Source: Cordylochernes scorpioides (Eukaryota > Arthropoda > Arachnida > Pseudoscorpiones > Chernetidae). Taken from it: a stretch of 64,000 nucleotides of DNA. This document shows positions 10,391 through 63,031 of the stretch, one piece after another (position 1 is the stretch's first letter; each line of letters begins with the position of its first letter). A model generated the notes under the pieces. It was not told the DNA's origin. It worked only from the letters and a program-made list of their open reading frames with translations, and searched no databases. The stretch covers positions 107,370,099-107,434,098 of the forward strand of contig CP092863.1 of assembly GCA_030710605.1 (NCBI GenBank), in the 5' to 3' direction. The translations under genes were made by a program, and so were the position numbers.

Positions 10391-11040
10391 ATACAACAGA
10401 AAATATCTTCTTTAAAATATATATAAATAGTAGGGATAATAGAAATAAGAAATATATGTGCACTTTAGAGATATAATAATGAAGAATTATAATGTATATT
10501 TAGAAGAAAAATAAATCATTACTCTTTTAAATTATTTAAAATATTGAAATAATATTTTTGTTGAGTTATAGTTGAGGCGTCTGTGAGACCAATTCAAATA
10601 TTTATTATTATAAATATTTAAAATAGCCGTTTGTCTTTTTTGAAACTTTGTTTTTAGAACTATTTACATATTTAAAAACTAAATTATAAATAAGCCATGT
10701 CTATTATATATAAGTGTAGTTATAAACCTTTTATAATTTATATATATATTCAACACCATATACAAATTTAATATTTTATAGAAAAATTATTCTCAAACGT
10801 AGATTTTAATATTTATATTACAAACAAAATAAGGGTATCTGTATTTTAAAATAGTGTGGGAGTAAAAACTAATGTTTTATTATTGAAATATTTAAGGAGT
10901 TTTAAATATTTATATCTTTTTAAAATTATAAATTTACACAATTTTTAGAGCGAATTTTTAATGATCAATTTCGTCTGATGTATATTTTAATCTCGATGTA
11001 AGAGTGAAATATTGTAAATATTTTCTCTTTAAATATATAC
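10391..11040. other. AT-rich spacer, nothing recognised
   Basis: AT-rich sequence with no open frame of note, no inverted arms and no similarity that I can see to other parts of the window. Confidence 0.55.
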
Positions 11041-11041
11041 A

Positions 11042-11875
11042 TTCATGGACAGAACTTAGGGAAGTTGTACCTTTTAGCATGTATATCGGGATTCAGACAA
11101 TAACTCTGAAAGATACACTCATGGATAGAACTCAGGGAAGTTGTACCTTGTAGCATGTATATCGGGATTCAGACAATAACTCTGAAAGATACACTCATGG
11201 ACAAAACTTAAGAAAGTTGTACCTTTTAGCATGTATATCGGGATTCAGACAATAACTCTGAAAGATACACTCATGTGTAACACTCAGGCAATTTGTACCT
11301 TTTAGCATGTATATCGGGAATCAGACAATAACTCTGAAAGATACACTCATGTGTAACACTCAGGGAATTTGTACCTTTTAGCATGTATATCTGGATTCAG
11401 TCAAAAATTCCGAAAATATACTCATGGACAACACTTAGGAAAGTTGTACCTTTCAGCATGTATATCGGGATTCAGACAATAACTCTGAAAGATACACTAA
11501 TGGACAACACTTAAGGAAGTTGTACCTTTTAGCATGCGTATCGGGATTCAGACAATAACTCAGAAAGATACACTCATGGACAAAACTTAAGGAAGTTGTA
11601 CCTTTTAGCATTTATATCGGGATTCAGACAATAACTCTGAAAGAAACACTCATGGACAACACTTAAGAAAGTTTTAACTTTTAGCATGCGTATCGGGATT
11701 CAGACAATAACTCTCAAAGATACACTCATGGACAAAACTTAAGGAAGTTGTACCTTTTAGCATGTATATCGGGATTCAGACTATAACACTGAAAGATACA
11801 CTCATGGACAACACTTAAGAAAGTTATACCTTCTAGCATGTATATCGGGATTCAAACAATAACTCTGAAAGATAT
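11042..11875 (+). repeat. 76-bp minisatellite array, about 11 units
   Basis: The unit runs from ACTCATGGACAAAACTTAAG through GTTGTACCTTTTAGCATG, TATATCGGGATTCAGACAAT and AACTCTGAAAGATAC. Units differ by scattered substitutions. Other arrays of the same unit lie at 39305-40912, 54990-55190 and 58465-58840, with inverted partial units at 16870-17060. Confidence 0.92.
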
Positions 11876-14255: not shown

Positions 14256-14326
14256 ACGTTGATCTAACTTGTTTCGTGATATTTGGCTAAACCATTATTT
14301 TAAAAGTATTAAGGAAAGCCAACCAA

Positions 14327-14365
14327 CCACGTACGCATTTTGGGCTGTTGGCCCTCGTCAGGACC
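14327..14365 (-). ncRNA. Decayed hammerhead ribozyme motif
   Basis: On the minus strand the order is CTGACGA, stem II GGGC/GCCC with loop CAACA, then AAAA where GAAA is required, then TGCGTACGTGG. It is the sister of the better copy at 47617-47656. The loss of the G in GAAA makes it unlikely to cleave. Confidence 0.45.
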
Positions 14366-14408
14366 TGACAATTTTTCAGTTTTTTTTCTTATTTTTTCAT
14401 ATATATAT

Positions 14409-14884: not shown

Positions 14885-15051
14885 ATATATAGATGGAAAT
14901 TCTTTAGAGGGAGGAAATAGATCTAAAAAAGCATAGGGCACCTCTCCCTTTCAAATAAACGTCAAAACTAAACGCCATCTTTTGACCTTTGCGCGTCTTC
15001 GGGTCGGTGACAAAGCCACAACACCAGCTTTGGAAAACTGAGAAGTCTCCA

Positions 15052-15095
15052 CCTGGAGACCATGGGTTTGGGCTAATGGCCCTCGTCAGTCTAGG
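15052..15095 (-). ncRNA. Hammerhead ribozyme motif, damaged core
   Basis: Minus strand: stem I CCTAGA, CTGACGA, stem II GGGC/GCCC-like arms, then CAAA instead of GAAA, a short stem III CCCATGG, GTC cleavage triplet, and TCCAGG closing stem I. All parts are in order, but the GAAA box is mutated, so cleavage is doubtful. Confidence 0.55.
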
Positions 15096-15323
15096 GCGGA
15101 CTTTATTCCATGAATCACACGGGATCTAATGTAATTCTTACAATCTGCCAAAGAGGTGTTTATCTAGCAAAGTGGCTAGGCCAAATCTATGGCCAATATA
15201 TAGATGGAAATTTGGCCGGTAATAATTGATCTCTCAATAAAAGCATAAGGCGCCTTACCCGTAAAAGTTAGGATTGTGAAGATTCCATTAGATCCATAGT
15301 GTATCTCACGGAATAAAGTCGGC

Positions 15324-15367
15324 CCTAGACTGACGAGGTCCATTAGCCCGAAACCATGGTCTCTAGG
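15324..15367 (+). ncRNA. Hammerhead ribozyme motif
   Basis: Order on the plus strand: stem I strand CCTAGA (15324-15329), box CTGACGA (15330-15336), stem II GGTCCATTAGCCC, box GAAA, minimal stem III CCATGG, cleavage site within GGTC, then TCTAGG (15362-15367), which pairs perfectly with CCTAGA. Both conserved boxes are intact. Stem II has one mismatch in four pairs. The tiny stem III is typical of ribozymes in Penelope-like elements, which are thought to act best as dimers. Self-cleavage is inferred, not shown. Confidence 0.72.
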
Positions 15368-15612
15368 TGGGCGCTTCTCAGTTTGTAAAAGCTGGTGTTG
15401 TGGCTTTGTCGCCGATTCGAGGTCGCTAGTTTGCGGCGATGGTCAATAGATGGTGTTTATCTTTGACGTCTATTTTGAAGGGAGAGGTGCTCTATGCTTT
15501 TGTAGATATGTAAAACTTTAAAAAGGCTTAGAACTAGATGGTGTTGGTAGAACGTTCCAATATGCTATAAATATTGAAGAGTCAACATTTTTTGACAACA
15601 CCAACAATTTGA

Positions 15613-15988: not shown

Positions 15989-16300
15989 TTTTTTTTTTAT
16001 TATCCCTAGTACACGTGATACAGGCCATGATAATCATGGTGGGTAGTTAGCGACTGCTTTTACTGTAAGCGCACCACATGTCTACACATGTGAAAAGCAG
16101 TTCGACTTTGCACTTACAAATGTGCCAGAGCCCCGTTTGGTTACTTGCACTCGCTGGTGGAGTTGAACTTTTGCAAGATTCGGGGACCATTGGAGCATTT
16201 ATTTTTAAACAGAAAAAGTGTCCAATGCGGGAATCGAACCCGGGTCGTAGTGGTCGAAAACCAAATGGTTTAACCAGCCTTCCACCGACCCCCCGGTCGG
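15989..16300 (-). mobile_element. tRNA-derived SINE, copy 1
   Basis: Read on the minus strand it starts GGGGGGTCGGTGGAAGGCTG (A-box region) and has GACCCGGGTTCGATTCCCGC, a canonical RNA polymerase III B box. It then has a unique body, the palindrome CCATGATTATCATGG, and TACTAGGGATAAT with an A-run tail. Flanks TATAAAGCTG (15979-15988) and TATAAAGCAG (16301-16310) are a target duplication with one change. Other copies: 20365-20760, 21630-21928, 30181-30445, 38141-38672, 59248-59556, and fragments at 395-520 and 31796-31890. Confidence 0.85.
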
Positions 16301-16618
16301 TATAAAGCAGTTGTTGTATATAAAACACCTCACATTTCAAATATGATCATTATTGTATAATTGACTTCAAATAGTTATTCAATCAAGTGTGTTCTGTGAG
16401 GATTTTGTTGACATTGGGAGTCAATTACATCCATCTAATTAAGTCCCCTAATTATTCTCTAATTAGTTATCTCTCTTAATGAGAGGTGACTTTGTTGACA
16501 TATACCTTGTTGGCTTTCAGACCGACAGACAAACATCACACGGTTGTCGTCTTATGAAAGATGTTTATGTTAAGGTGGTTGTTTTGTTGTGGTGATACGC
16601 CCCTAGAAATATAAAAGA
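16301..16618. other. Spacer, nothing recognised
   Basis: Ordinary AT-rich sequence with a weak internal duplication of CTAATTA/TAATTAG words near 16435-16475. No gene, no repeat that I can assign. Confidence 0.45.
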
Positions 16619-16623
16619 AAATA

Positions 16624-17060
16624 AAACGACTGTCGAAATTAGAGACTTTTCACTTCCTCAAGTTTTGTCCATGAGTGTATATCGTCTTGGATAATAAACA
16701 ATTTATATATCCATATATAAATTGTTTATTATCCAAGACGATATACACTCATGGACAAAACTTGAGGAAGTGAAAAGTCTTTAATTTCGACAGTCGTTTT
16801 TTTTTTAGAGAGAGAGAGACAGAGGCAATGTTTTGTTCACACTTGGTTATCTCTTGTGTTTTCAATAGAGGTCACTGCAATATATTTCAGAGTTATTGTC
16901 TGAATCCAGATATACATGCTAAAAGGTACAACTTCCTTAAGTTTTGTCCATGAGTGTATCTTTCAGAGTTATTATCTCAATCCCAATATACAAGTATATG
17001 TATAAGTACTTGTATATGCTAAAAGGTACAACTTCCTTAAGTTTTATCTATGAGTGTATT
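16624..17060. repeat. Palindrome plus minisatellite hairpin module
   Basis: 16624-16799 is a nearly perfect palindrome centred near 16712 (TATATATCCATATATA). Its arms carry CACTCATGGACAAAACTTGA and its complement, i.e. the terminal sequence of the 76-bp unit. It then continues into the hairpin module (GAGACAGAGGCAATG, CACACTTGGTTATCTCTTGT) and inverted minisatellite units to about 17060. This shows the first ~27 bases of the unit acting as a terminal inverted repeat. Confidence 0.75.
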
Positions 17061-19429: not shown

Positions 19430-19700
19430 TATATTTATAGATGGAAATTTTGCCGCGAGGATATTGATCTATAATGATAAAGGTAACCTCTCCTGTCAAA
19501 ATAGACGTCGTCTATTTTGTGATCTGGAAATATTTCCAGGTATGCACCTCTTTGGCGGATTGTGATGATTTCGTTTGATCCCTTGTGGATCTCATGGAAT
19601 AAAGTTCGTCCTAGACTGACGAGGGTCATTAGCCCGAAACCATGGTCTCTGGGTGGACGTTTTTCAGTTTGCTGAAGCTGGGGTTGTGGCTTTGTTACCG
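19430..19700 (+). repeat. Penelope-like repeat fragment
   Basis: Carries ATAGATGGAAATTTTGCCG, an AATAGACGTC block, CATGGAATAAAGTTCGTCCT, a hammerhead motif and TGGGGTTGTGGCTTTGTTAC, in the same order as the right half of the inverted pair at 15200-15510. Confidence 0.65.
19610..19653 (+). ncRNA. Hammerhead ribozyme motif
   Basis: CCTAGA, CTGACGA, stem II GGGT/GCCC with loop CATTA, GAAA, minimal stem III CCATGG, then the cleavage triplet GTC and TCTGGG. Stem I pairs CCTAGA with TCTGGG including one G-U pair. Both invariant boxes are intact and stem II is the best of the family. Together with 15324-15367 it defines the family consensus. Confidence 0.75.
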
Positions 19701-19750
19701 ACATGAGTCTTCTAATAGGTCTCTTCTTCTTCTTTCATATCTCCAATCAA

Positions 19751-19954
19751 TCACACTAAGGTATCAAACTTGTAAAGCTTGAGAATTTTGATGGTGTCTG
19801 CCGGGGAAGAGTAGAGATCATCAATGGATGAGTCAATACAGTCAATAATATGTTTTGGGGGTGCAGGTTGACACTTATTACATAGTGGGAAAACCTTGCA
19901 ACCATTCTGGAAAGCCATTGTCCGTAGATGACCAGACTTAAGTCTAGAAATCAA
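19751..19954 (-). pseudogene. LINE C-terminal fragment
   Basis: A 67-residue frame starting MISRLKSGHLRTMAFQNG, then VFPLCNKC, PPKHIIDC and DDLYSSPADTIK. The RLKSGH motif followed by C-x2-C and an HIIDC end is characteristic of the RNase H/zinc-knuckle tail of Jockey- or I-type LINE ORF2. Only the extreme C-terminus is left. The start methionine is just the first ATG in the remnant. Confidence 0.7.
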
Positions 19955-19999
19955 AGACTGTTGTTTTCTCCTCTAATATGTGGTAACGGTCAATACTTT

Positions 20000-20230
20000 T
20001 GACGGGAGAGGTGACTTTGTGGGGGAGTGATACATAAACGGTTTTAAAATACCGGGGATCGAATCCCGAATTGGGCACTTTTTTCTACTTCAATGTAGAT
20101 GACAAATCTAGTTTTGACGTCTATTTTTACAGGAGAAGTGACCTTGTGTTTTGTGGGGATTGATACACAAACGGGTTTAAAATATCCGGGATCGAATCCC
20201 GAATTGAGCACTTTTTTATTCTTCAAATAT
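20000..20230 (-). repeat. Duplicated B-box-like tRNA fragments
   Basis: Two units about 120 bp apart each hold AAACGGGTTTAAAATA-like sequence, GGGATCGAATCCCGAATTG and GCACTTTTTT. On the minus strand this gives CGGGATTCGATCCC, a B-box-like word, so they are probably old SINE heads. The preceding ACGTCTATTTT and GAGAGGTGAC blocks belong to the Penelope-like family. Confidence 0.45.
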
Positions 20231-20364: not shown

Positions 20365-20760
20365 AGTCATTAACTACCTACCGTGATTATCATGGCCTGT
20401 ACCACGCGGGATTAGTTGAATATTAGTTATCATTTGCTGCGGGAAGATGGTATAGAGAAAGAGACATCTCTCCCTTTAAAAAATGCATTAAGCCTATCGA
20501 TTCTATATCTGGCAGAGAGTGATATTAAAAACAAAATAGGCATATCCTGACAAGAACCACATGTGCCTTTCAGAAGGCAGAGCGAATTGCACTAACAAAT
20601 GTGCCAAAGCCCCGTTTGGTTACTTGCACTCGTTGGTAGGATTGGACCTTTGCAAGAATCGGGGGCCATTGGAGCATTTTTTTTAAATCAGAAAAAAGTG
20701 CCCAATGCGGGAATCGAACCCGGGTTATAGCGCTCGAAAACCAACTGTTTAGACCACCCT
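20365..20760 (-). mobile_element. tRNA-derived SINE, copy 2, interrupted
   Basis: The tail half (TAACTACCTACCGTGATTAT to GTACCACGCGGGATTAG) lies at 20365-20415. The head with the B box (minus-strand GGGTTCGATTCCCGC) lies at 20570-20760. About 130 bp of unrelated sequence, including a CATATCCTGAC hairpin fragment, separates them. It is a damaged copy. Confidence 0.7.
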
Positions 20761-20954
20761 TGTCTGAGAGAGAGTGGAATTCTTAATAAAAGCCGACGAC
20801 TACGGAGTTCTGATTCAATAAGACTGTAATTAATGGTGTTCAGAGATGGTCCATTCTGCACATGTAGTGCAACTGTATTGGTACAATTGTTGTCCTGTCT
20901 GTTACAACCATCCTTCAAATCCTTCTATCCTCTCTCTCTGTTATCTGCGCGGTT

Positions 20955-22375: not shown

Positions 22376-22591
22376 TGTTGAAGTTTGAGATTCAATCAAG
22401 GAATAAAAAGATTATTTATTAAACAAAGTAACTTAAAACAAGATGTTAAAGTAGCAACATTTTAAAGGCAAGTCGATATAGGAAGGCGAGGGACAAAGAC
22501 TATATATTGACGTCGACCGCAGCGCCGCCGCGGCCGTTGATTGGTCGATCCTCCAATGCTCCATGCCAATATTTTGATCGCTATTCCAACA
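22376..22591 (-). repeat. Copia 1, 3' LTR
   Basis: 216 bp, TG...CA ends on the plus strand as TGTTGAAGTTTGAG and GCTATTCCAACA. It differs from the other LTR at GAGATTC versus GAGATTG. Confidence 0.93.
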
Positions 22592-25439
22592 CTCCCTCTC
22601 GATCCAAAATGTTCAGTAGACCTCTTAAGTAGTGGAATTGGTTACGTGGAAGAGGTTTAGTCATTATATCAGCTAGCTGTTCTGAGCTGCAAACATTATG
22701 CACTTTAAGTTCATCTTCTTCATGTTTGGATCTAATGAAGTGGTAGCTAACATCAATATGTTTCGTTCGTTTGTGGAATACTGGATTTTCAACAAGTTTT
22801 ATTGCTGCTTGGTTGTCGATATAAAGTTCAGTTTCTTTAGTAATATCACAGCCGATGCCCTGTAGAAGTCTTCTGATCCAAATCAATTCCTTAGCAGCAC
22901 TGCAGGCAGCGATGTATTCACTTTCGGTGGTTGAAAGTGCGATAATTGGTTGTCGTTGGCTTGCCCAAGAAACAGTTCCTCCGTTCATCATGAAGGCATA
23001 ACCAGTCGTACTTTTTCTGGAGTCAACATCACGAGCAAAATCACTATCAGAGTAGCCAAAAAGTTGGTCTTGTCCAGTGAAGAGAATTCCCATGTGTGGA
23101 GTGCCTTTCAGATAACGGAAAATATTCTTCACTGTTGTACAATGTGCAGGTCCTGGATATTCTAGGAATTTACTCACTTGTGAAACTGCATATGTGATAT
23201 CTGGACGTGAAACAAATGATGCAAACATAAGGGATCCAACAGCTTCTCGAAAAGGGAATTTAGGCATCTTTTCCTTTTGTTCTGGAGTAGGACAGTCCTG
23301 TTTTGTTAAGATGACAGAAGGATCCATAGGCACCGAAGCAGGAATACAGTCAGCCATATTAAATTTACTCAAAATTTTGTCAATATATGATGACTGGTGA
23401 ATGAAAATACTTGCCCTATCTTCTGACTGCTCTATTTGTAGCCCAACAAAAAAGTTAACACTTCCAGATGTAATATCAAATGCGTGTTCTAACTCATCCA
23501 TTATAATAGCTATTGCCTCTTTATCTTTAGATAGAATAATTCCATCATCAACATAGAGAGCTAAGATAACATTTGAATCATTGTGTGTTCCAATGAAAAT
23601 GCACGGGTCGGCGTCTGATGTTTTGAAATTATGGCTATTCAAAAAATTGGTAAATTTCTTATTCCAATTTCTAGAAGATTGTTTAAGACCATACAGACTT
23701 TTATGTAATCTATAGCAGCTATTATCATCTCTCTTGTAGCCTTCTGGTTGTTCAAGATAAACAAGTTCCTCTAATTCGCCATTGAGAAAAGCTGTCTTTA
23801 CATCGAATTGCTTAAGAAACATCCTTTCAGAAGCAGCGTGTGATAAAAGAATGCGTAACGAATCATACCTGACTACTGGGCTAAACGTATCGAAATAGTC
23901 AAAATTTTTGATTTGAGAATAGCCTTTTGCAACTAATCTGGCTTTGAACCGTTGAATTGTACCATCGGACTCCGTTTTAATTTTATAAACCCATTTACAA
24001 CCGATAGGTTTATGACCATCTGCCAGACGTTCTAAAGTCCATGTTTTATTTTTATTTAATGCATCAATCTCTTCATCCATGGCTAATTTCCATCTTTCTG
24101 AATATGAACTTGTTATTGCATCTATATAGTTACTGGGTTCATCAGCGAGCGCAAAGTTACATTGGCTATCCGAAACTTTAGAGCGTGTTATCATTGGATG
24201 CGAACTGATATCGGATACTGGCAGCATTTTCTGCACTGGGAAGTTTGTTGTTGCAACTGGTGATTCATCCGGAGCGCTGTTAATCTGAAATATTATTTCT
24301 TTCGGTTTGGTAAATTCTCTATCTGAATGTGGAGTAGCTTTCTCATCGAATGTGACATCTTTAGAAATTCTTATTTTTCTAGTTTTCCAATCCCATAATC
24401 TAAAATTTTTGCTTGTATTCTCATAACCTAAAAACATAAGTTTTATCGATTTATTATCCCACTTTTTACGGTTTTCTTTGGGAATATGCATATAAGCATT
24501 ACAGCCAAATATTTTATAGTTAGCTACATTAGGCTTTGTGCCAAAGAAAAGTTCATAAGGTGTCGTTCCAGGAGTTTGCTTAGTCGCACTTCTATTTAGA
24601 ATATAAGTTGCTGTGTTACATACCTCAGCCCAAAAAAATCCTGGAAGATTTCGTGAATTTAGCATGGACCTGGCTGCTTCCACAATCGTACGATTGTCTC
24701 TCTCTATACGTCCTATCTGTTCGTGCACATAAGGTGCAGTGAACTCGTGAATTATCCCAAATCTTTTACATAAATCTGCAAAATTATCGCTTTTGAATTC
24801 TAGCGCATTATCAGTCCTAAGAACTTTTATCTTATTTCCAGTTTGAGTATAGATTAGAGTAGCATATTCTTTGAATATATCTAGCACATCTGATTTGTTT
24901 TTAATAAAATAAATATGGCGATAACCACTAAAGTAATCTTTAAATAAGCAGAAATACAGATATTTACTTAATGATTGAGTCTGCATTGGGCCACAAATAT
25001 CAGCATAAATAAACTCACCTAGCTGGTAGTTTTTGCCATCTGAGGGATAGCACGACTTTCTATGGGCTTTTCCAAGTTGGCATCCTTCACAGAAGAAAAA
25101 TTCTCCCTCTAAATCTTGAGGCTGCAGACCATCCACCAATCCTTTGGTCGCCATCTCTCGAAGTGTAGCAACTGGAAGATGCGCAAGTCTCTCGTGCCAC
25201 AACTGAAGCTTGTTCTCGCTGGTGATGTATCCTTGTGATGATGACGTAACCTTGAAGAGCATCCTGTAGAGGTCGTCATGACGCACTCCTACGGCTTTTA
25301 GATCATTATCCATGAAGATCTGTAGCTTGTCATGTTTGATAATGACGTTGAATCCTCTTCTTGTGGACGTAGAAAGGCTATACAAATTTTTCTTTAGTTG
25401 CGGCGAGTAGAGCACATTTCTTATGTACGTATTGTACAT
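22581..25439 (-). pseudogene. pol: Copia 1 integrase, reverse transcriptase and RNase H
   Basis: 952 residues in the minus strand, overlapping the LTR at the end. Order: GAG-pre-integrase region; zinc finger H82, H87, C117, C120; integrase catalytic triad D147, D210, E246 (D-62-D-35-E spacing as in the family); reverse transcriptase from about 450 with KWVYKIK, KARLVAKG, the DVKTAFLNGELEE block and active-site YVDD at 629-632; RNase H from about 790 with YSDSDFA, ALSTTESEYIA and IDNQAA. All catalytic residues that I can check are present. The frame starts inside the region joining protease to integrase, and its ATG is probably not a true start: the normal polyprotein is continuous with the Gag frame. 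The frame is offset by -1 from Gag, so this copy cannot make the full polyprotein without frameshifting. I call it a pseudogene on that basis. Confidence 0.9.
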
Positions 25440-26479
25440 CCACCGTCGACGTAGGCTTGAATCTCGATGTCTCCCATGCCTTCTGCAAGTAGTGTCGAGT
25501 TGTCTCCCAAGTAGATTGGATGATCACTGGTGAACGGCGTGTAGGTCTTGAACCACTCTCGTCGAAATGTCATGCTGCAGCTTGCACCGCTGTCAGCATA
25601 CCAAATATCATTGGGCTCTACTTGATTATCGCACAAAATAAGTCCATAATCACTTGAACTTCCTTTTGAATCATGAATATTTTTGGATTTATTTTTCTCA
25701 TTAGCTAATCTTTTTCTACATTCGCGGCTCCAATGTCCAATTTTGTGACAATAGTGGCATTTAGTGTTCTTCTTGGCATCTTGAAAAGAACGTTGTGTAT
25801 CTTTAGGCTTCGTTCGTGCTTGCCTGTGTAGTAAGGCCTCATCTTGTTTAGAAGAACCGCTTTGTTGATTCCTTGTTTCTTCAATCAAAAGCCTTGCAGT
25901 TAAATTGTTAAGAGTTTGAGCTTTCGGATCTAACGATTCCCACGCTGCAACAAAGTAGCGCATACTCGAAGGCAAAGTATTTAAAATTTTTGCTACCTTT
26001 TGATCTTCCGTTATGGTTCCGCCCATTTGTGAAATTTGTGCAGAAATATTTTCAATTTTTGCTATGTAATCACTTATTGTTTCCGATGTCAATCGTGCAT
26101 CGAAGAATTGTTGCCAAAGTAGGCCAATAGTAAATTCGGATTTTTGTTCATGAATAGCAAGTAATTTCTGCCACATTTGTGAAGCGGAAGTACAGTTCAT
26201 CAGGGGCTGAAGAAACCTTAATTCGATTGCCTGTGATAACAACATCCTTGCCTTAACGTCCTTTGATTTCCAATTCTGTAGTGAACTTTCAGAGTTACTG
26301 TCGGAGGAAACAACATTCGGCTTTATTTCTAAGCCTTCCAATAATTCTAGTAATTTTTGTTGTTCCATAAGAAGCCTGAATTGGAATTTCCATAGTGAAA
26401 AGTTTTCACCATTAAAAACTTTAATCCTTGAAAGACAATCTTCGCTCATCTTCTTTGTCTTGGAATCGGCCAACGACAA
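25421..26479 (-). CDS. gag: Copia 1 Gag and protease part
   Basis: 352 residues. The N-terminal half is the helical Copia-type capsid region (motif FNGENFSLWKFQFRLLMEQ near 22-40). A CCHC zinc knuckle (C-x2-C-x4-H-x4-C, residues 241-254) follows, then the aspartic protease active site DSGAS at 296-300. The frame stops at 25421, soon after the protease motif and before the integrase. Upstream, between the ATG and the 5' LTR, lie about 117 bases including the primer site. Capsid and zinc knuckle would package the RNA; protease would cleave the polyprotein. The protease C-terminal part is cut by the frame change, so it is probably defective. Confidence 0.9.
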   Translation of the reverse strand: MSLADSKTKKMSEDCLSRIKVFNGENFSLWKFQFRLLMEQQKLLELLEGLEIKPNVVSSDSNSESSLQNWKSKDVKARMLLSQAIELRFLQPLMNCTSASQMWQKLLAIHEQKSEFTIGLLWQQFFDARLTSETISDYIAKIENISAQISQMGGTITEDQKVAKILNTLPSSMRYFVAAWESLDPKAQTLNNLTARLLIEETRNQQSGSSKQDEALLHRQARTKPKDTQRSFQDAKKNTKCHYCHKIGHWSRECRKRLANEKNKSKNIHDSKGSSSDYGLILCDNQVEPNDIWYADSGASCSMTFRREWFKTYTPFTSDHPIYLGDNSTLLAEGMGDIEIQAYVDGGCTIRT

Positions 26480-26565
26480 AAAGAAACTAGGGTTATGGTT
26501 GGCGGTTGACGCCTAAACTTCGAGCAAAACAGAGGCTTACTCACTGCTGGCGGTTAATCCTTTTA

Positions 26566-30555: not shown

Positions 30556-30975
30556 ATTATATTCTCACAATGAGTATCTTTTTATTTTAAAAAACGCTAG
30601 CTTTGAAGCGTTAATCGCTCTTCAACGGGCTTACTATAATCCCACCAGAATCTCTCGTTTCCAATGAATATAACAGCATAAACAGAAAAATAGATTTACC
30701 ATCACAATACCTTAGATATCTCGGAAGAAATCAATTTTATAGGTTCTGGATGCCCTAAAAATTAAAATAGACATATTTCATAAAATAGTTAAAATAGTTA
30801 AATTACAAACCAATTTAAAATTTTCAGTTATAAATATCCACGCTGCGCGCGTTTGCTTTTGTAAATATTTCTGGTGGGATCAAGTAAGCCCGTTGAAGAG
30901 CGATTAACGCTTGAAAGCTAGCGTTTTTTTTAAATAAAAAATATACTCATTGTGAGAATATATTTGTAATTTAAA
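30556..30975. mobile_element. Foldback/MITE with ~95-bp inverted arms
   Basis: Arms ATATTCTCACAATGAGTAT, AACGCTAGCTTTGAAGCGTT, AATCGCTCTTCAACGGGCTT, ATCCCACCAGAA and their complements at 30868-30970, centre near 30766, with about 220 bp between. No frame inside. A class II non-autonomous element by structure; TSD not resolved. Confidence 0.75.
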
Positions 30976-34339: not shown

Positions 34340-34670
34340 GCGCTTCCTAATTTTCCAAAGCTGGTGTTGCGGCTTTGACACCGACCCGAGTCCGCTAGTT
34401 TACGGAAAAGGTCAATAGATGGCGCCTAGATTTGACATCTATTTTGACGGGAAAAAAGGCGATATCTATTGTCATATTCTCATAAATATTATACCGATTC
34501 AAAGTAGAGGGATTAGTTTAAAAAGTATATCTACCATTAATCTACCAAGTATATTAAATGATGAGCCAGGCCTTCCCAATAATTTATCATTGCATTAAGA
34601 ACAGTTGAATAAATATATATATTTTTTAAATAATCATACGCGTTAACAAATAATAGTTTGAATTTCTTAT
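34340..34670. repeat. Penelope-like and foldback fragments
   Basis: 34350-34450 has AAAGCTGGTGTTGCGGCTTT, CACCGACCCGAG and AATAGATGGCGCC, then ATCTATTTTGACGGGA, the ends of the Penelope-like repeat without its ribozyme. 34558-34660 holds ATGATGAGCCAGGCC and AATAATCATACGCG, part of the 29937 foldback family. Confidence 0.55.
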
Positions 34671-36010: not shown

Positions 36011-36301
36011 ATAGCATAATCCCCAAGATGATCATAAACACAAGCAGAAAATCAAACCTCATTTTTTCATATAATATATATATATATATGAGTCCAAATT
36101 TTAGTCGTAGCGGTACAGTCTGCACCATGCTGACATGGATCAACAGCCTGAAACGTGTTCGGGGTTGGCTTTTCTTGATTTATTGAGAATTGGGTTGGCC
36201 AAATATCAGTTAAATAAACGATTAGTTTATTTTTGTTCTACTAGATGGCGCTCTGCCATTTAGAGATGTTCTTGTTTTCAGCCTCTTTTGTTTATATATA
36301 C

Positions 36302-37745: not shown

Positions 37746-37788
37746 CCCTGTACTGATGAGGGCCATAATCCGAAACCATGGTATACAA
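37746..37788 (+). ncRNA. Hammerhead ribozyme motif
   Basis: CCTGTA, CTGATGA, stem II region GGGCCATAATCC, GAAA, minimal stem III CCATGG, cleavage site GTA, then TACAAG. Stem I pairs TGTA with TACA plus one outer pair. Both invariant boxes are intact; stem II is weak (two G-C and one G-U). A diverged member of the 15324 family. Flanking TGGAATTGAAGCC and GGTGTTGTGG words are from the same Penelope-like repeat. Confidence 0.6.
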
Positions 37789-39304: not shown

Positions 39305-40912
39305 CTGTATAGACACTCATGGACAAAACTTAAGGAAGTTGTACCTTTTAGCATGTATATTGGGATTAAGACAATAACTCTGAAAGATACACTCATGAAC
39401 AAAACTTAAGGAAGTTGTACCTTTTAGCATGTATATCGGGATTGAGACAATAACTCTGAAAGATACACTCATGGACAAAACTTAAGGAAGTTGTACCTTT
39501 TAGCATGTATATTGGGATTAAGACAATAACTCTTAAAGATACACTCATGGACAAAACTTAAGGAAGTTGTACCTTTTAGCATCTATATCGAGATTGAGAC
39601 AATAACTCTGAAAGATACACTCATGGACAAAACTTAAGGATGTACCTTTTAACATGTATATATCGGGATTCAAACAATAACTCTGAAAGATACACTCATG
39701 GACAAAACTTAAGGAAGTTGTACCTTTTAGCATGTATATTGGGATTAAGACAATAACTCTGAAAGATACACTCATGGACAAAACTTAAGGAAGTTGTACC
39801 TTTTAGCATGTATATCGGGATTGAGACAATAACTCTGAAAGATACACTCATGGACAAAACTTAAGGATGTACCTTTTATCATGTATATATCGGGATTCAG
39901 ACAATAACTCTGAAAGATACACTCATGGACAAAACTTAAGGAAGTTGTACCTTTTAGCATGTATATTGGGATTAAGAAAATAACTCTGAAAGATACACTC
40001 ATGGACAAAACTTAAGGAAGTTGTACCTTTTAGCATGTATATTGGGATTAAGACAATAACTCTGAAAAATACACTCATGGACAAAACTTAAGGAAGTTGT
40101 ACCTTTTACCATGTATATCGGGATTGAGACAATAACTCTGAAAGAAACACTCATGGACGAAACTTATGGAAGTTGTACCTTTTAACATGTATATCGGGAT
40201 TCAGACAATAACTCTGAAAGATACACTCATGGACAAAACTTAAGGAAGTTGTACCTTTTAACATGTATATCGGGATTCAGACAATAACTCTGAAAGATAT
40301 ACTCATAGACAAAACTTAAGGAAGTTGTACCTTTTAGCATGTATATCGGGATTCAGACAATAACTCTAAAAGATACACTCATGGACAAAACTTAAGGAAG
40401 TTGTACCTTTTAGCATGTATATCGGAATCGAGACAATAACTCTGAAAGATACACTCATGGACAAAACGTAAGGAAGTTGTACCTTTTAGCATGTATATCG
40501 GGATTCAGACAATAACTCTGAAAGATATACTCATAGACAAAACTTAAGGAAGTTGTACCTTTTAACATGTATATCGGGATTCAGACAATAACTCTGAAAG
40601 ATATACTCATAGACAAAACTTAAGGAAGTTGTACCTTTTAGCATGTATATCGGGATTCAGACAATAACTCTAAAAGATACACTCATGGACAAAACTTAAG
40701 GAAGTTGTACCTTTTAGCATGTATATCGGAATCGAGACAATAACTCTGAAAGATACACTCATGGACAAAACGTAAGGAAGTTGTACCTTTTAGCATGTAT
40801 ATCGGGATTCAGAAAATAACTCTTAAAGATACACTCATGGACAAAACTTAAGGAAGTTGTACCTTTTAGCATGTATATCGGGATTCAGACAATAACTCTT
40901 AAAGATATTACA
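39305..40912 (+). repeat. Large 76-bp minisatellite array, about 21 units
   Basis: Same unit as at 11042-11875. Unit variants alternate in higher-order blocks: GGGATTAAGACAATAACTC, GGGATTGAGACAATAAC and GGGATTCAGACAATAAC types recur in patterns, and a short variant (AACTTAAGGATGTACC) appears twice about 230 bp apart. The block near 40205-40500 is repeated at 40510-40810 almost unchanged, which indicates recent segmental expansion. Minus-strand open frames are artefacts of the repeat. Confidence 0.93.
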
Positions 40913-42702: not shown

Positions 42703-42911
42703 TGTTGTAAGATTTAGGTACTTACAGCTTGTAGGAAGGCATGAGGACGTTGAGGATTATATGATAATAATCTTTATTATCCATTTAGCAAGAAAGACAA
42801 AGTTATGGTAGCGAACAGTTATTGAAGTATAGAGAAGAAAGGTAAACAAACAGTTGTGATGATGATAGGTCCAGTGTGGCGCTAGCTGTCGTAGCATTCA
42901 GTTATCCAACA
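42703..42911 (-). repeat. Copia 2, 3' LTR
   Basis: 209 bp; overlaps the last codons of the polyprotein by about ten bases (frame ends at 42902). Confidence 0.93.
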
Positions 42912-45900
42912 AATCCCCGGCATGAATGTGGAGACATCACGAGGTTGTAGCGTAACTTCTCAAATGTCGGCCTTGGTAGCGGCTTGGTCAGAATGTCCGC
43001 CTTCATGTCGCCAGTTGGGCAGTAGATCATTTTTATCACTGTCTTCTTCTGAAGATCCTTCAGGTGATGGATCTTGGTTGCGATGTGCTTGGTTCTAGAA
43101 GACACTTTTTCGGATGAACATATCTTGAGACATGATTGATTGTCTTGGTGGAAGTAGATTGGAGCTTTCTGTTCCAGTTCGAGATCCTTTAGCAAGTCGA
43201 GAAGCCATAACAGTTCTTGTGAGGCTTCAGCTGCGGAGATTAGTTCCGCTTCGGTGGATGAGAGAGATACGCAACCTTGTTTCCCAGTCATCCATGAGAT
43301 GGGGTTTGATCCCAGTAGGAACAAGTTTCCGCTTAGTGATTTTCTGTCGGTGTTGTCGCTTGCCCATGTGGCATCACTGTATGCTTCCAGTGTGGGAGGT
43401 TTTTGGTTAGATATGCGTAGCTCGAGTTCTTTAGTAGTTTTTAGATATCTTACGATTCTTTTTGCTGCATTCCAGTCACAATTTCTAGGATTCTGGTTTC
43501 TGCTGCTAAGTATGCAGACTGGAGCTGCGATATCTGGTCTGGATACTACGCTTAGGTACAATAGTGAGCCTATTAGTTGTTGGTATTGGACGTTGTTTGG
43601 TAGAAGTTTTTCATCAGATATACCGGGATATCCGCTTTCCATGGGAGTGAAAGTAGGTTTCGCTTCTTGGAGGTTGTACCTTTCAACTAGTTCTTGGATT
43701 TTATTCTTTTGGCTCAGTAGGAGTTCACCTTCTCTGTTCCTGGAGATTTCTATACCAATGAATTGAGTGGGGTCTCCAAGGTTCTTTATTTCGAATTCTT
43801 TTTCGAGAGTTTTTACAGTGTTTTGGATGATTATCTCGGAATCGCTTGCGAGGAGCATGTCATCCACATATAGAATCAAGTAGATGGAATGGTTTTCTTC
43901 ATTCTTGGTGAATAGGCATGGGTCTACAATGCTCTGTTTGAAGTTATTTTTAATTAGAGTGCTTGCAATTTTTGTGTTCCAAGATCTTCCAGCTTGTTTT
44001 AGACCGTAAATTGCCTTCTTTAGTTTGCAGACTTTGTTTGTTTGTTTTGTATGGAGTCCTTCTGGGAGTTCCATGTAGAGTTCTTTATCTAGGTCGCCGT
44101 GTAGGAACGCTGTCTTGACATCGAGGTGGTTCACTTTCATCCCTTTGTAGACTGATGCAGCTAGGAAGGCTCTAATTGTAGAATGCTTCACAATTGGTGC
44201 AAAGGTTTCTTCGTTGATTGCTTGAGCTTCAGTTTTGTACAGCATGTAGTCATTTCTTATGGGAGGTATTCCCTTTGTTGGTCTCGTGGATCTTCTTTGT
44301 GTGACCACTTGTGTTCCTGTGCTTGTACCGGGTTGAAGGTAATCCTCGGTTTCTGAGTCCTCAAGGTTTTCGGGTTGTGTTCTTGGTTCCTGACTTTCCT
44401 CTGCATTACCAAAATGATTGGAGGAAGTTAGATCTGTACTTAGTACTTGTGGTGAAGTTGTTTTTGTGGAAGTGTGGTGAAAACCATTTTCTTTTTCTAG
44501 AAATTTTACGTATCTGCTGATTGTGATGTTGTCGGTGTCGTGCAGGATTCTGTATCCTTTGCTTCGATCATCGTATCCAAGAAAGATCCCTTCGATAACT
44601 TTGCTATCCAACTTGTTTCTTTTTATCTTGGGAATATAGGCGAAGGCTTTACATCCGAATCTTTTTAGATGCTTCAGACTGGGCTTCCTGTTGGTCCATA
44701 GTTCAAAAGGAGTCTTGTCTGTAGCTTTCGAGGGTATTCGGTTGTGTAGGTAATTAGCTGTGGTAACCGCTTCCGCCCATAGAGACTGTGGGAGTCCTGA
44801 GTCAAACAGCATGCATCTTGTCATCTCCATTAGTGATCGATTTTTCCTTTCTGCTACTCCGTTCTGGGCTGGTGAGTAGGGGACTGTTAGCTGATGTTTG
44901 ATTCCGCTTTGGTTCAGGAAATCTTCGACTTGTCGGTTTACGTACTCACGACCGTTGTCTGTCCGTATGGTTTGGATATTTTTTCCAAATTCCGTGTGTG
45001 CTGAGATGACGTAGTCTTTTATTTTTTCATAGGCTTCGTCTTTTCCTTTCAGGAGGTAGGTCTTCGTGTATCTGCTGTAGTCATCAGTGAAGGTGATGAA
45101 GTATCTCTTACCGCTGAGAGAGTTAGTTGGTAATGGACCGCAGATATCACTGTGGACAAGTTGAAGCGTTTCAGTTGCTCTGTACTCTGTCTTCTTTGGA
45201 AATGGGGTTTCGGTGAGTTTTCCTTGAATGCACTGAACGCAGTCTGTGCTGTGCGAACAGTTATTTAGACTTAGTCCTCTTGCTAGGTTCTCATTTCGAA
45301 TCTTCTTAATTGATTCTATATTTCTGTGTCCTAGTCTGTCGTGCCAGAGCATGAGGCAATTTTTGTTCTTGCAGTGGTTTTGTTTTGCAACATTTGCTTT
45401 GAATGTGCGAGTTTGGAGGTTGTCATCCAGGTGGAGTCGGTACATTCCATTGTCAAGTATACCGTTCGCGAAGGCTGTGTTGTCTCTTTCGATGGTACAC
45501 CAATCTCTGTTGAACGTCACTTTACATCCGTTGGAGGTGGCCGCACTCACTGACAGAAGGTTGTCTGTTAGTTCCGGGATGTAGAGAACTTTTGTGAGAA
45601 GTAAGGTGTCAGTTTTTCCTTGGGGTGTGATGACTTTGATTTCTCCTTGTCCTATCCCTTTGACCTGCAGCTTATTGCCATTAGCAACCACAACATTTTG
45701 TGTTTGTTCTCTGTTAAGTTCAGTGAAGAAGCTTTCATCGTACGCCATATGAGATGTGGCTCCAGAGTCGATGAACCAGTTGTGTACACTTGCTTCTCGT
45801 TGAGTGCAATTGAGAGCTTTTGGGTTTGGTCCTTTTGTTGTTCTCTGATTTGTTGGTTGTTCTTGGGTGACACTCGACTGATTTGTGTACTTTGGTACGT

Positions 45901-46657
45901 TTCCTCTTCTCAAGTTTTCATATTTGTTCTCTTTGTTGCTGTTGTTTCGCTTTTGATAGTGCCAACATTCTTCTTTGGAGTGGTTTGGTTTGTGGCAGAA
46001 AGAACAGGATTTCTTCTCTTTTTCTCTTCTTTGGCTTGAAGCTCTGTGGAGGCTTTTTAAGGCTTTTGATCCGGTGCTTTCGTCTTTCGAGCTTTCTACT
46101 CTGCGTGTGTGTTCATCAAGGAGTTTGTTCTTGGTAAATTCAAGCGTTAGCTCGTCATCAGGCCTTGATTCCAACATCGTGATGAGATTGGAGTAGCTCT
46201 TTGGAAGCGAGCAAAGCAGTATAGCCGTGATGTGAGAGTCCCTTAGTGTTTCGCCAATGGTTCGCAGTTTGTCAACTAGTTCCATCATGGTAGTGATGTG
46301 CTGTTGCATGTCTTTGTCTTCTTCGAGTTTTAAGCTGTATAGTTTCCTTAGCAAATAAATTTTTCCTGAGAGTGTTTTTCTTTCATAGATATTTTTAAGA
46401 GTGTCCCAGGTAGCTTTGGCTGTTAGTAGGTTTTTGACATGCACTATTTGTGAGTCGGCGATGCTTAGATTAATGATAGCTCTAGCTTTTGAGTCTTTCT
46501 TTTTCCATTCGATTTTAGGTTCATCTGGAATATTTTCGGTGACAACTTCCCAAAGATCTTCCTTTTGCAAGAGCATTTCAATTTTGAAAGACCATAGTGA
46601 GTAGTTATAGCCGTCGAGCTTATCTAGGGTTACATCGTGGCTCGGGAGTGACGCCAT
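42902..46657 (-). CDS. Copia 2 Gag-Pol polyprotein, RT internally deleted
   Basis: 1251 residues. Gag with GYNYSLWSFKIEMLL near 16-30; CCHC zinc knuckle at 218-231; protease active site DSG at 297-299; integrase zinc finger with H439, H444, C473, C476; integrase triad D504, D567, E603 (D-62-D-35-E); reverse transcriptase with NHLDVKTAFLHGDLDKELY, YGLKQAGRSWN and YVDD at 930-933; RNase H with YSDATWAS, SLSSTEAELI and HQDNQSC; end near LTKPLP. Odd: at about residue 812-817 (near 44215) the chain passes from the end of the linker straight to ETFAPIVKHSTIRAF. The segment that normally precedes it (catalytic-palm start with KWVFK and KARLVAKG motifs, roughly 80-90 residues, present in Copia 1 at 450-518) is missing in frame. 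The rest is intact. The ATG chosen follows the leader by about 70 bases after the LTR. Confidence 0.93.
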   Translation of the reverse strand: MASLPSHDVTLDKLDGYNYSLWSFKIEMLLQKEDLWEVVTENIPDEPKIEWKKKDSKARAIINLSIADSQIVHVKNLLTAKATWDTLKNIYERKTLSGKIYLLRKLYSLKLEEDKDMQQHITTMMELVDKLRTIGETLRDSHITAILLCSLPKSYSNLITMLESRPDDELTLEFTKNKLLDEHTRRVESSKDESTGSKALKSLHRASSQRREKEKKSCSFCHKPNHSKEECWHYQKRNNSNKENKYENLRRGNVPKYTNQSSVTQEQPTNQRTTKGPNPKALNCTQREASVHNWFIDSGATSHMAYDESFFTELNREQTQNVVVANGNKLQVKGIGQGEIKVITPQGKTDTLLLTKVLYIPELTDNLLSVSAATSNGCKVTFNRDWCTIERDNTAFANGILDNGMYRLHLDDNLQTRTFKANVAKQNHCKNKNCLMLWHDRLGHRNIESIKKIRNENLARGLSLNNCSHSTDCVQCIQGKLTETPFPKKTEYRATETLQLVHSDICGPLPTNSLSGKRYFITFTDDYSRYTKTYLLKGKDEAYEKIKDYVISAHTEFGKNIQTIRTDNGREYVNRQVEDFLNQSGIKHQLTVPYSPAQNGVAERKNRSLMEMTRCMLFDSGLPQSLWAEAVTTANYLHNRIPSKATDKTPFELWTNRKPSLKHLKRFGCKAFAYIPKIKRNKLDSKVIEGIFLGYDDRSKGYRILHDTDNITISRYVKFLEKENGFHHTSTKTTSPQVLSTDLTSSNHFGNAEESQEPRTQPENLEDSETEDYLQPGTSTGTQVVTQRRSTRPTKGIPPIRNDYMLYKTEAQAINEETFAPIVKHSTIRAFLAASVYKGMKVNHLDVKTAFLHGDLDKELYMELPEGLHTKQTNKVCKLKKAIYGLKQAGRSWNTKIASTLIKNNFKQSIVDPCLFTKNEENHSIYLILYVDDMLLASDSEIIIQNTVKTLEKEFEIKNLGDPTQFIGIEISRNREGELLLSQKNKIQELVERYNLQEAKPTFTPMESGYPGISDEKLLPNNVQYQQLIGSLLYLSVVSRPDIAAPVCILSSRNQNPRNCDWNAAKRIVRYLKTTKELELRISNQKPPTLEAYSDATWASDNTDRKSLSGNLFLLGSNPISWMTGKQGCVSLSSTEAELISAAEASQELLWLLDLLKDLELEQKAPIYFHQDNQSCLKICSSEKVSSRTKHIATKIHHLKDLQKKTVIKMIYCPTGDMKADILTKPLPRPTFEKLRYNLVMSPHSCRGFVG

Positions 46658-46711
46658 TTTTGCTAAGCCTTTTTTCTTTGTCTTAACTCGTTAGTTGAAT
46701 TTCATGCAATA

Positions 46712-47560: not shown

Positions 47561-47616
47561 TTTTATTATTCCAGAATTGACCAAATACCATTTCTTGATT
47601 AATCAAGAAAAGCTAA

Positions 47617-47656
47617 CCACGTACGCGTTTCGGGCTGTTGGCCCTTATCAGCGTGG
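47617..47656 (-). ncRNA. Hammerhead ribozyme motif, one core change
   Basis: Minus strand: stem I CCACG, CTGATAA, perfect stem II GGGC/GCCC with loop CAACA, GAAA, minimal stem III CGCG, cleavage site TA, then CGTGG closing stem I in five pairs. All helices are perfect. The only core defect is A for G in the CTGANGA box. A second family, distinct from 15324, with a sister at 14327-14365. Confidence 0.65.
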
Positions 47657-48731
47657 TGCAAGCTGTACCTCAATGACCAAAAAAGATGGCCTTTGATGCA
47701 TCTTGAATAAGTATGGAACAGGTATTTAGGCCGGAAGATCCTGAGAACGCCATTCAATGTGAAACATTGTTTTCACATTAATTTATCAATGGTACTTCTC
47801 TTATTTTTGTTCAAATATTTATAAGGAAAAGTTATTTCTACAATCCTTATACTGAAATGCATAAAATATGAAAGATGGAAGGCATGGTATATCAGGAGTT
47901 GACTATTCAAGCGAGTTTCTCCAGTCAAATCATCAGACCACTCTACTATTGTATTAGACTGATTCGGTTCCAAAATTACCTTATTAGGTACCGCTCAACA
48001 AGAACAACCTAGTTTTTGATATTTACAACAATGAATGTGAAGGTTATTTACTTATTAGACAAAATGTTAACGTGGGATTCAATTCCGGTTCATGGCTGTC
48101 GGGAATCGAGGGTGTTACCTACTTGTCCACCTGCTCAATATTAGACTGAATTTCTCTTATATGTCCTGAATTTGTTATAGAATAGAGTAAATGGGTGTTT
48201 TAAAAGCGAAATCTGATCAAAATCTTCTTTTTAACGAATATTTTAAGTGCAATAAAACAAAGGGCGTTGTGGGAACCACAACAGACAAATTGTCCTATGC
48301 GACAGAATAGATGACCATCCTGCTGTACCATGGTTTAACCAGTAGATTTGTATTCTACGGCGGCTTGCTAAGTACATGGTAATGAGCCTGTGTGTGCCTC
48401 GAGTTCCAATTATATCCATAGTGGACATGGATGTGTTCCATGTGTTGGACATTCTAACTAGGGCTATCTATCATCGGAGAACTAGGTTCCCTTGGTAGTC
48501 CTTGGTGTGTCTATGTAATATCTATTATAGGATGAGTATTTTTAGATTATTCTGGTAACCCTCTTGTTACATAGATTGTCTATCATCTCGGATCATTAGT
48601 ATGGGGTGATAGTTTATTATTGGAGAGGTAGTTTAACTCCAATATGTTTATTAGCTTTACCATCTCTCTATTTATCATTATCTAATATTATTTATTAATT
48701 TTTGTATTTAACCTCATATATAACCTATATA
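47657..48731. other. Spacer with a possible decayed SINE head
   Basis: No gene. 48066-48125 has GTGGGATTCAATTCCGGTTC, a B-box-like word in minus orientation, possibly an old SINE head. The rest is unassigned; open frames here show no domain. Confidence 0.35.
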
Positions 48732-60099: not shown

Positions 60100-60965
60100 C
60101 AGAAAAAAAAAACAAATATCCAGATAAAGAAAGGTTACCTCTCCCGTCAAAATAAACGCCACAACTAAACGATATCTATTGACCGTCTTTGTGTTTTTTA
60201 TTATTATTAAAAGAGGTAATTTTTTTATGAATAAATTCACACACAAAATCCTTTATTAGGGACTTGCTCCATACAGATTCTCCCAATTGGGTAAGGTAAT
60301 AATCATCTTGTGTTATTTACATAGAAATTGAACTGGCTTTATTCTTCATCTCAAAGTCATTCACTTGTTGACTGGTCCTTACATAATGATGATCTAAAAA
60401 AAATAAAATAAGCTATTGCATTAGATTTATTCGCTGATATTTTTGAAAGCAATACGTAGGTTGAAATGTTGGTACATTTAATTTGTTGATATAGGGCCTT
60501 CCTCTCTACATCAAGGGCTGTATAATTAAGCAGGTAATGGGGGATTTCTTCAGTAATTTCTTGTCACACAGTGTACTTATTAAGTTTTTGGGTTCAAACG
60601 TCAGAACGTGGTCCTTAGACATAACTGACTTTCAGTAAACGACAATTTTGATAAAGTGGTCTGATGTCTACTGACGTACTGACCGACGACTCAATGGCAT
60701 ATTTTTATCGACTTTCCGGGATTTCTGGTCGATCAAACCTTTCAGAACTTATTACTCCAAGATAGAACACGGAAGTGTCATTTGTTAATGACGTGTCTTT
60801 AAGGTGAAGATATAATGGTTAAATTGAGACCGAACAATATATTATAAGGAAAATTTCGGTAATGTATTTCAATATTGTATCCCTACTAACCTTTCTAAAC
60901 CTCTATATTTTTGTATAGTTATGTAAGTTATTTATGCATGAACACAATATTTATATATAAAAAAT
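60100..60965. other. Spacer with a Penelope-like scrap
   Basis: 60130-60190 has GGTTACCTCTCCCGTCAAAA and AACGATATCTATTGACCG, the border of the Penelope-like repeat. The rest has no gene or repeat that I recognise. Confidence 0.4.
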
Positions 60966-62829: not shown

Positions 62830-63015
62830 ATATAAAGAGACATGGGTCGCCTCTCCCGTCAAAATAGACGTCTAAAACCAGACGCCATCATTGACCGTCG
62901 CCGCAACTAGCGGCCTCGGGTCGGTGACAAAGCCGAGTGATGGCGTCTAGTTTTAGACGTCTATTTTGACTGGAGAGGCTACCCTTGTCTCTTTAGATCA
63001 ATTTCCTCCCGGCAA
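62830..63015. repeat. Palindromic Penelope-like border repeat
   Basis: AGAGACATGGGTCGCCTCTC and AAAATAGACGTCTAAAACCA on the left mirror TCTAGTTTTAGACGTCTATT and GAGAGGCTACCCTTGTCTCT on the right. GGTCGGTGACAAAGCCGAG near the centre is the Penelope-like repeat word. No ribozyme core remains. Confidence 0.6.
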
Positions 63016-63031
63016 AATTTCCATCTACCTA

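Follow-up and report, generated by a model that had tools for sequence, protein, structure and literature searches.

Hammerhead ribozymes in the window

The window, i.e., the whole 64-kb stretch of Cordylochernes scorpioides DNA that was analysed, contains intact and decayed hammerhead ribozymes, two-armed insertions and fragments of a repeat unit of 319 nt (Table 1). Copies 1 to 3 had been proposed in an initial annotation, and all three were found where it had placed them, with both core boxes intact. The stem I pairing it had given was also recovered, namely, CCTAGA with TCTAGG at 15324 and CCTAGA with TCTGGG at 19610. Two details of the helices are corrected here: copy 1 has a U.C mismatch within stem II (GGUC/GCCC) and copy 3 has a C.A mismatch within stem I. 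In copy 2, both the core and the stems are intact, with wobbles. In the hammerhead at 47602..47671 (-), core G8 is replaced by A. With an open stem I, CUGANGA and GAAA boxes and an NUH cleavage triplet, these are by sequence type I hammerheads, for which self-cleavage is predicted. The term minimal, which had been applied to them, is apt for a type I hammerhead with a very short stem III but not for stem I of the main family, which, judged by eye, is extended by an internal loop and an outer helix (GUCC/GGAC). The core pattern CTGANGA-N6-22-GAAA-N5-GT occurs three times in the window, in copies 1 to 3, versus 0.10 expected, and none of 100 shuffles contained three or more matches.

Table 1 Hammerheads and copies of the 319-nt unit in the window; bits and E are those of the covariance model built from genomic copies, and unit positions are numbered from the predicted cut site
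Feature	Position	Strand	Bits	E	Remarks
Degenerate third-family hammerhead	14308..14381	-	22.4	0.00018	
Insertion 1, left arm	14887..15266	-			Unit 177 round to 112, ~1.2 units; outer end of long (177) type; 81% identity to 319-nt consensus, E 9e-102; supported by inverted repeats I3 and I11
Fourth hammerhead copy	15037..15109	-	67.7	4.6e-19	GAAA box destroyed, reads CCCAAACCC
Insertion 1, right arm	15272..15507	+			Unit 230 to 145; outer end short (141/145); 87.3% identity, E 2e-79
Hammerhead copy 1	15324..15367	+	79.5	7.3e-23	Predicted cut after 15361 (GUC)
Insertion 2, short left arm	19436..19509	-			Unit 176 to 103; long-type outer end; without ribozyme
Insertion 2, right arm	19532..19702	+			Unit 204 to 55; match stops at 19702, where other sequence begins; right end lost
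Hammerhead copy 2	19610..19653	+	75.3	1.7e-21	Predicted cut after 19647 (GUC)
Fragment of 319-nt unit	34341..34452	+			Unit 11 to 121
Degenerate third-family hammerhead	36110..36179	+	19.6	0.0016	
Hammerhead copy 3, second family	37746..37788	+	72.2	1.7e-20	Predicted cut after 37783 (GUA)
Third-family hammerhead	47602..47671	-	35.8	9.3e-9	Stem I CCACG/CGTGG; palindromic stem III
Fragment of 319-nt unit	60138..60187	-			Unit 125 to 76
Miniature two-armed insertion	62842..63027	.			Lacks ribozyme; adjoins (TA)n tract; ends of short and long type, one each
Miniature insertion, minus arm	62842..62934	-			Unit 132 to 41
Miniature insertion, plus arm	62939..63027	+			Unit 87 to 174

The initial annotation had put forward a covariance-model check and had named background scores as grounds for giving up the ribozymes. 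The outcome differed between the models used. Scanned with Rfam at the gathering score, the window gave no match. When tiny stretches were searched, copy 1 gave sub-threshold matches to Hammerhead_HH9 (16.2 bits, E 0.069) and to RAGATH-1-hammerhead (12.8 bits, E 5.2), copy 3 gave one to HH9 (15.6 bits, E 0.11), also sub-threshold, and copy 2 gave none. Taken literally with Rfam, the proposed check would have failed the hammerhead finding. The use of Rfam as judge of this ribozyme was rejected because an intact genomic 319-nt unit yielded no hammerhead match with it either. A covariance model was built from 23 copies, none of them from the window, of the 2.62-Gb assembly (24 contigs), and with this model copies 1 to 3 were found at E values of 7e-23 to 2e-20; two more rows, at E 0.15 and 0.23, were treated as chance. 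The 23 copies were taken from 30 loci, of which L001, L002, L013, L016 and L022 were omitted by eye as non-hammerheads and L005 and L026 were also omitted. Invariance of the boxes among the 23 is no evidence, since the same boxes were used to fetch them. In the whole genome, 34,675 matches to the core pattern were found, versus 5,968 for the reversed control. An exact 38-nt perfect ribozyme is present in 7,697 copies versus 0 for the reversed control, and an exact 140-nt stretch in 454 versus 0.

Three hammerhead families were distinguished. Stem I is CCUAGA/UCUAGG in family 1, CCUGUA/UACAGG in family 2 and CCACG/CGUGG in family 3. Stem II is GGGC/GCCC, with GCGC/GCGC in part of family 3, while stem III reads ACCAUGGU in family 1 and ACGCGU in most family 3 copies, both being self-complementary. 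Descent of copies 1 to 3 from one ribozyme, as had been suggested, does not stand in the sense of a single recent ancestor, as copy 3 comes from the second family, whose stem I differs but is compensated (CCTGTA/TACAGG) and whose cleavage site is GUA, and the window also has hammerheads of a third family.

In an alignment of 14 hand-picked copies from the three families, 94.6% of the pair cells were paired, compared with 19.6-40.6% in slid controls. Doubly changed cells numbered 32 versus 10.3 in shuffles and the covariation score was matched by none of 500 shuffles, the signal residing mainly in stem I and in one pair of stem II; the number of pairs with a double change was unremarkable (6 versus 4.8 in shuffles, 126/500). 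The 23-copy set, mainly of families 1 and 2, was 88.4% paired and had 18 doubly changed cells versus 10.5 (1/500). Its covariation score was likewise reached in 0/500 shuffles, and its pairs with a double change, two, were fewer than in shuffles. Stem III was invariant in both alignments, which is partly fixed by the search pattern. As judged from the aligned sequences, the helices are preserved by compensatory change, with stem I co-varying across the three families.

Cofolding of two 55-nt family 1 cores gave -51.6 kcal/mol, versus 2 x -22.2 for the single cores, and the minimum is a double hammerhead with an 8-bp stem III joint, in which the register of stem I is slightly shifted. When copy 2 was cofolded with itself, stem III was kept and the remaining hammerhead stems were replaced by other pairing. 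At minimum energy, the full hammerhead does not form in a single-strand core, as is expected for so short a stem III.

A non-coding element of 319 nt

In young arrays the ribozyme repeats every 319 bp, 69 of the 74 same-strand neighbours at 48 loci and in the window being spaced by exactly this distance. The 319-nt unit has a GC content of 49.5%; its longest stop-free frame is 78 aa, or 49 aa from an ATG. Its RNA folds at -129 kcal/mol (z -6.94), a stability attained by none of 100 shuffles. Copies 1 and 2 are old copies of this non-coding element, which is of the metazoan retrozyme kind: it combines a non-coding unit of 319 nt (within the range of 170-400 nt) with a type I hammerhead, tandem copies and high self-pairing. 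The ORF for a reverse transcriptase (RT) and a GIY-YIG endonuclease that marks an autonomous Penelope is absent from the 319-nt unit.

A reading of the 4.3-kb interval from copy 1 to copy 2 as a single Penelope element with direct repeats was rejected: the two copies are separate two-armed insertions, and the interval contains no such ORF. Between 15.3 and 19.6 kb there is no frame of 150 aa. The phrase Penelope-like repeats, used for these sequences in the initial annotation, can be kept for repeats of a mobile element with probable Penelope-like machinery but not in the sense of pseudo-LTRs of a Penelope ORF. The proposal, derived from locus L003, of a family 2 hammerhead upstream of a Penelope ORF was also dropped, since the RT-like part starts ~400 nt downstream, beyond unrelated sequence. 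Searches of phage and viral collections yielded nothing useful.

Other repeats were observed in the window. A satellite unit of 75-76 bp, seemingly identical throughout, is present at 39313-40907, 11037-11874, 58475-58840 and 54992-55187, and a near-perfect hairpin with 93-nt arms at 16618-16805 consists partly of this satellite sequence. Regions of Copia-type polyprotein were recognized by eye at 22581-26512 (-) and 42902-46690 (-), the latter with an uninterrupted frame of 1,262 aa. Short repeats at 20022-20226, 16213-16281 and 20693-20761 contain a tRNA-like B box GGGATCGAATCCC and may be remnants of SINEs (by eye). Insertion 2 is interrupted at 19703-19975 by a stretch whose minus strand, judged by eye, resembles a non-LTR retrotransposon at its RNase H end.

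Anatomy of the insertions

The divergent layout of the insertions, with its two fixed ends, is the most informative feature of the element and was absent from the initial annotation. It was mapped in 20 regions, which are all listed 140-nt places with at least two close exact matches. In 18 of them a left minus arm is followed by a right plus arm, their 5' sides meeting centrally; L066 and L078 are one-armed. Arms vary from 0.2 to 13 units in length. The outer ends fall at unit positions 134-145 (mostly 141) or 173-177 (mostly 177), 36 nt apart and mostly in (TA)n.

One short end (134-145) and one long end (173-177) were combined in 20 of 21 scorable two-armed insertions. These are the 18 mentioned above plus three further two-armed ones in the same regions; L069 was counted though its plus arm is split by other sequence, and the count excludes L066 and L078, with their single arms, as well as two fragments (L079 2657-2761, L080 3044-3146). 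The exception was L071, with both ends at 177, which was counted as a miss. Judging from its left flank, which resembles an inverted copy of the right flank, L071 may have been changed secondarily. Mixed ends were also found in all 12 scorable cases among 19 further loci, with looser limits for older copies (short 124-151, long 172-181), the other seven being unscorable. Two copies in the window follow the same rule, 14887-15507 (177/145) and 62842-63027 (132/174).

The ends were also examined by a route that needs no alignment: across the genome, 933 exact long ends and 514 exact short ends run into (TA)n, versus 0 in the control. On contig C1, which is complete in both end lists (87 long, 39 short), outward-facing neighbours within 2 kb were mixed in 14 of 14 cases, three of which overlap the earlier sets, and no long-long or short-short outward pair occurred. 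A random draw on this contig would give ~43% mixed pairs and hence, by simple arithmetic, a chance of ~7 in a million for 14/14. Apart from these, the close neighbours on C1 were two short ends on the same strand, which belong to adjacent insertions, and two long ends that face inwards at a distance of 4.6 kb. The ribozymes themselves show the same orientation: among the 100 matches listed, opposite-strand neighbours within 1,500 bp comprised 10 divergent pairs and no convergent one, and at 48 loci and in the window 21 divergent pairs were counted versus 3 convergent ones, of which at least two lie between separate insertions. The inverted head-to-head arms with a one-sided tail of 30-40 bp that characterize a Penelope-type product were found here, the end difference being 36 nt. 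Target duplications are unreadable inside (TA)n; outside it, duplications of ~10-11 bp were seen by eye at L065, L019 and L028, with a mismatch in two of them.

The two arms of an insertion also share sequence variants. Bases that were arm-fixed, i.e., non-consensus in all of at least two units of one arm, recurred in the other arm at all 14 array sites concerned, which came from 6 of the 16 two-armed arrays tested (L066, L078, L079 and L080 were omitted), and no counter-example was seen. Some of these shared variants are subfamily marks rather than private ones; for example, those at 98 and 181 occur together in four arrays. Within arrays, another 78 sites were polymorphic, most of them through singletons, a pattern consistent with later mutation.

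The inner joins lie mostly at unrelated phases of the unit, with an overlap of up to 7 nt or up to 10 extra nt. The inner ends are scattered in phase, the largest difference being 148 of 319 positions, with pairs such as 98/207, 318/120, 73/124 and 61/105; a few are close, i.e., 27/17, 169/185 and 147/165. Unrelated phases point to the end joining of two cDNAs, as one folded-back cDNA would give equal phases.

Penelope-like enzymes in the genome

A first look at the genome gave 17,015 GIY-YIG candidates; 146 of the 150 that were scored passed the cut-off, with open frames of up to 828 aa. On seven contigs, GIY-YIG neighbours within 6 kb were divergent in 11 cases and convergent in none, the rest of the list being without a close pair (by eye). 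RT frames at L070 and L080 were over the Pfam cut-off and that at L003 was just under it, while the endonuclease at L071 was under its own cut-off; the name Penelope for these loci rests on the co-occurrence of RT and GIY-YIG. Penelope-like machinery is probably involved in moving the 319-nt element. Against this stands the one Penelope 3' end that was compared, that of L070, which has only 11 nt in common with the 319-nt unit, so that no start-site RNA sequence shared with a Penelope family was found.

Some further traces of Penelope elements were noted. At L071 (981-1630), a Penelope copy consists of two divergent endonuclease ends joined centrally and adjoins the retrozyme array. In the window, a scrap at 30648-30725 (+) resembles the C-terminus of a Penelope GIY-YIG protein (tblastn E 4e-4). 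Hammerhead-like minimal motifs lie on the minus strand at 14495-14458, 56832-56796, 12305-12276 and 61335-61305, and such motifs, CTTGATAAAG..CCGAAATGTTGG and CTGTAGAAGG..CCGAAAGCTTG, we take to be of the kind found at the 3' ends of Penelopes. A short (TA)n follows ~60 nt downstream of the motif at 14495-14458 (-), and the Penelope copy at L070 has a like hammerhead motif ~90 nt before its (TA)n end.

A model for insertion and its alternatives

The element is quite probably a non-autonomous one of the retrozyme kind that spreads when a Penelope-like enzyme copies it bidirectionally, by target-primed rolling-circle synthesis; of this scheme, we infer the enzyme, the circle and the cleavage. 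Multimeric transcripts would be cut by the ribozyme, probably as dimers paired via the palindromic stem III ACCAUGGU, and the 319-nt monomer would then be closed into an RNA circle. A Penelope-like RT/GIY-YIG enzyme would cleave both strands of a (TA)n site, and each free 3' end would prime copying at one of two adjacent internal RNA sites. Each RT would run round the circle, often for several laps, and the two cDNAs would finally be united centrally by end joining. What counts against this scheme is that long linear multimers transcribed from one genomic array would also yield identical units.

A more specific form of the model has a dimeric Penelope-like RT, loaded with one circular hammerhead RNA, firing simultaneously on both (TA)n strands from starts 141 and 177, and here the case for and against is evenly balanced. 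Both start sites end in UAU, which counts against a Penelope-like enzyme, as pairing with the TA target DNA may help to choose them. If the paired starts are real, every insertion consists of two divergent rolling-circle cDNAs, and the inverted repeats and one-sided tail of Penelopes would be explained without self-priming.

It is unlikely that the element was instead inserted through twin priming by an enzyme of the LINE type. Twin priming, as known from work on L1, likewise yields divergent arms, and a LINE-like remnant lies in the window (19703-19975, by eye). The flanks shown have no A-rich 3' end, however, and such an enzyme would have to account for a (TA)n target and for two fixed internal start sites that are each used once. 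The GIY-YIG pairs, 11/11 divergent, moreover show a layout that matches that of the 319-nt element and so speak for a Penelope-like enzyme.

Self-priming, in which a single cDNA folds back and copies itself into an inverted repeat with a palindromic centre, is improbable. It would give the inverted head-to-head arms, and it is the model proposed for rotifer Penelopes in 2013 (PMC3846280, in the part consulted). It would also require the arms to meet at a near-equal position of the unit, whereas the inner ends scatter, and it offers no reason for two different outer ends.

Slightly less probable again is an origin as ordinary satellite arrays that expanded by unequal exchange and were inverted by chance. 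The first animal hammerheads known were indeed those of satellites, according to the sections of PMC7229834 compared, and the arrays here are made of identical tandem units. Against this, dispersed copies share two end positions in (TA)n (the 933 long and 514 short exact ends), and variants are common to both sides of the inversion. It is very improbable that the element is a DNA transposon (MITE) bounded by terminal inverted repeats and carrying the hammerhead by chance, for although the copies in the window resemble elements with such repeats and include a palindrome at 14.9-15.5 kb, there are up to 13 tandem units per arm, arm lengths vary freely and we know of no transposon with such ends.

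Comparison with known systems

A parallel to the bidirectional copying preferred here is offered by the Penelope PAc of the anole. In the part of the report consulted (PMC11167929), its protein cleaves and extends both target strands, and the enzyme is predicted to be a dimer. Reverse transcription begins at two neighbouring positions within the RNA, and the 30-40 bp tail corresponds to the segment that separates them. The start site of PAc is not homologous to its target, whereas the start sites of the 319-nt element end in UAU and could pair with TA. Rotifer Penelopes, as far as the sections compared of PMC3846280 go, typically have an inverted pLTR, mostly head-to-head, with a 31-bp tail that is optional on one of them; self-priming was proposed by the authors and left open.

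With the Penelope pLTR elements of these sources (PMC3846280, PMC11167929), the 319-nt element shares inverted head-to-head arms, a one-sided tail and AT-rich targets, as well as two adjacent internal RT starts and a hammerhead in the repeated part. Unlike Penelopes, it has no RT ORF, a unit of 319 nt and rolling-circle-like concatemers in both arms, and its ribozymes differ from the hammerheads of Penelopes in the internal loop of stem I.

The metazoan non-LTR retrozymes (Cervera and de la Pena 2020, PMC7229834) resemble the element in their type I hammerhead, a unit of 170-400 nt, tandem copies and high self-pairing, as set out in the sections compared. The GC content of the element, 49.5%, lies below the 50% stated in the text of that paper but exceeds the 45% given in the legend of Figure 1. 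Those same sections mention neither arrays with two divergent arms, nor two fixed outer ends, nor a preference for (TA)n targets, and the word 'inverted' occurs 0 times in the main text. Among the hammerhead repeats covered there, HHR_Amex1 and 2 of newt and axolotl are alike in having units of 330-350 nt, a short stem III with a tetraloop and dimeric action, and the stem III of HHR_Amex1 is palindromic, as in the 319-nt element. They are of another sequence family and are described as tandem repeats (PMC7229834).

No description of divergent rolling-circle retrozyme arrays was found in the literature searched, which most subscription papers fall outside. As judged from its sequence, the 319-nt element would be a new family of animal retrozyme with an insertion anatomy for which no description was found there. 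The conjecture that retrozymes are moved by Penelopes has been made before (PMC7229834, PMC7761336, in the parts consulted), and Penelope-like elements have been named strong candidates for mobilising metazoan non-LTR retrozymes (PMC7229834); the insertion signature is what is added to it here. The element bears on how Penelopes insert, why their repeats are inverted, what the one-sided tail is and what moves animal retrozymes. Being small, young, high in copy number and without an RT gene, it displays the insertion products cleanly, with two starts, one per strand, and several laps. It also provides a direct and cheap substrate for studies of bidirectional target-primed reverse transcription of a circular RNA.
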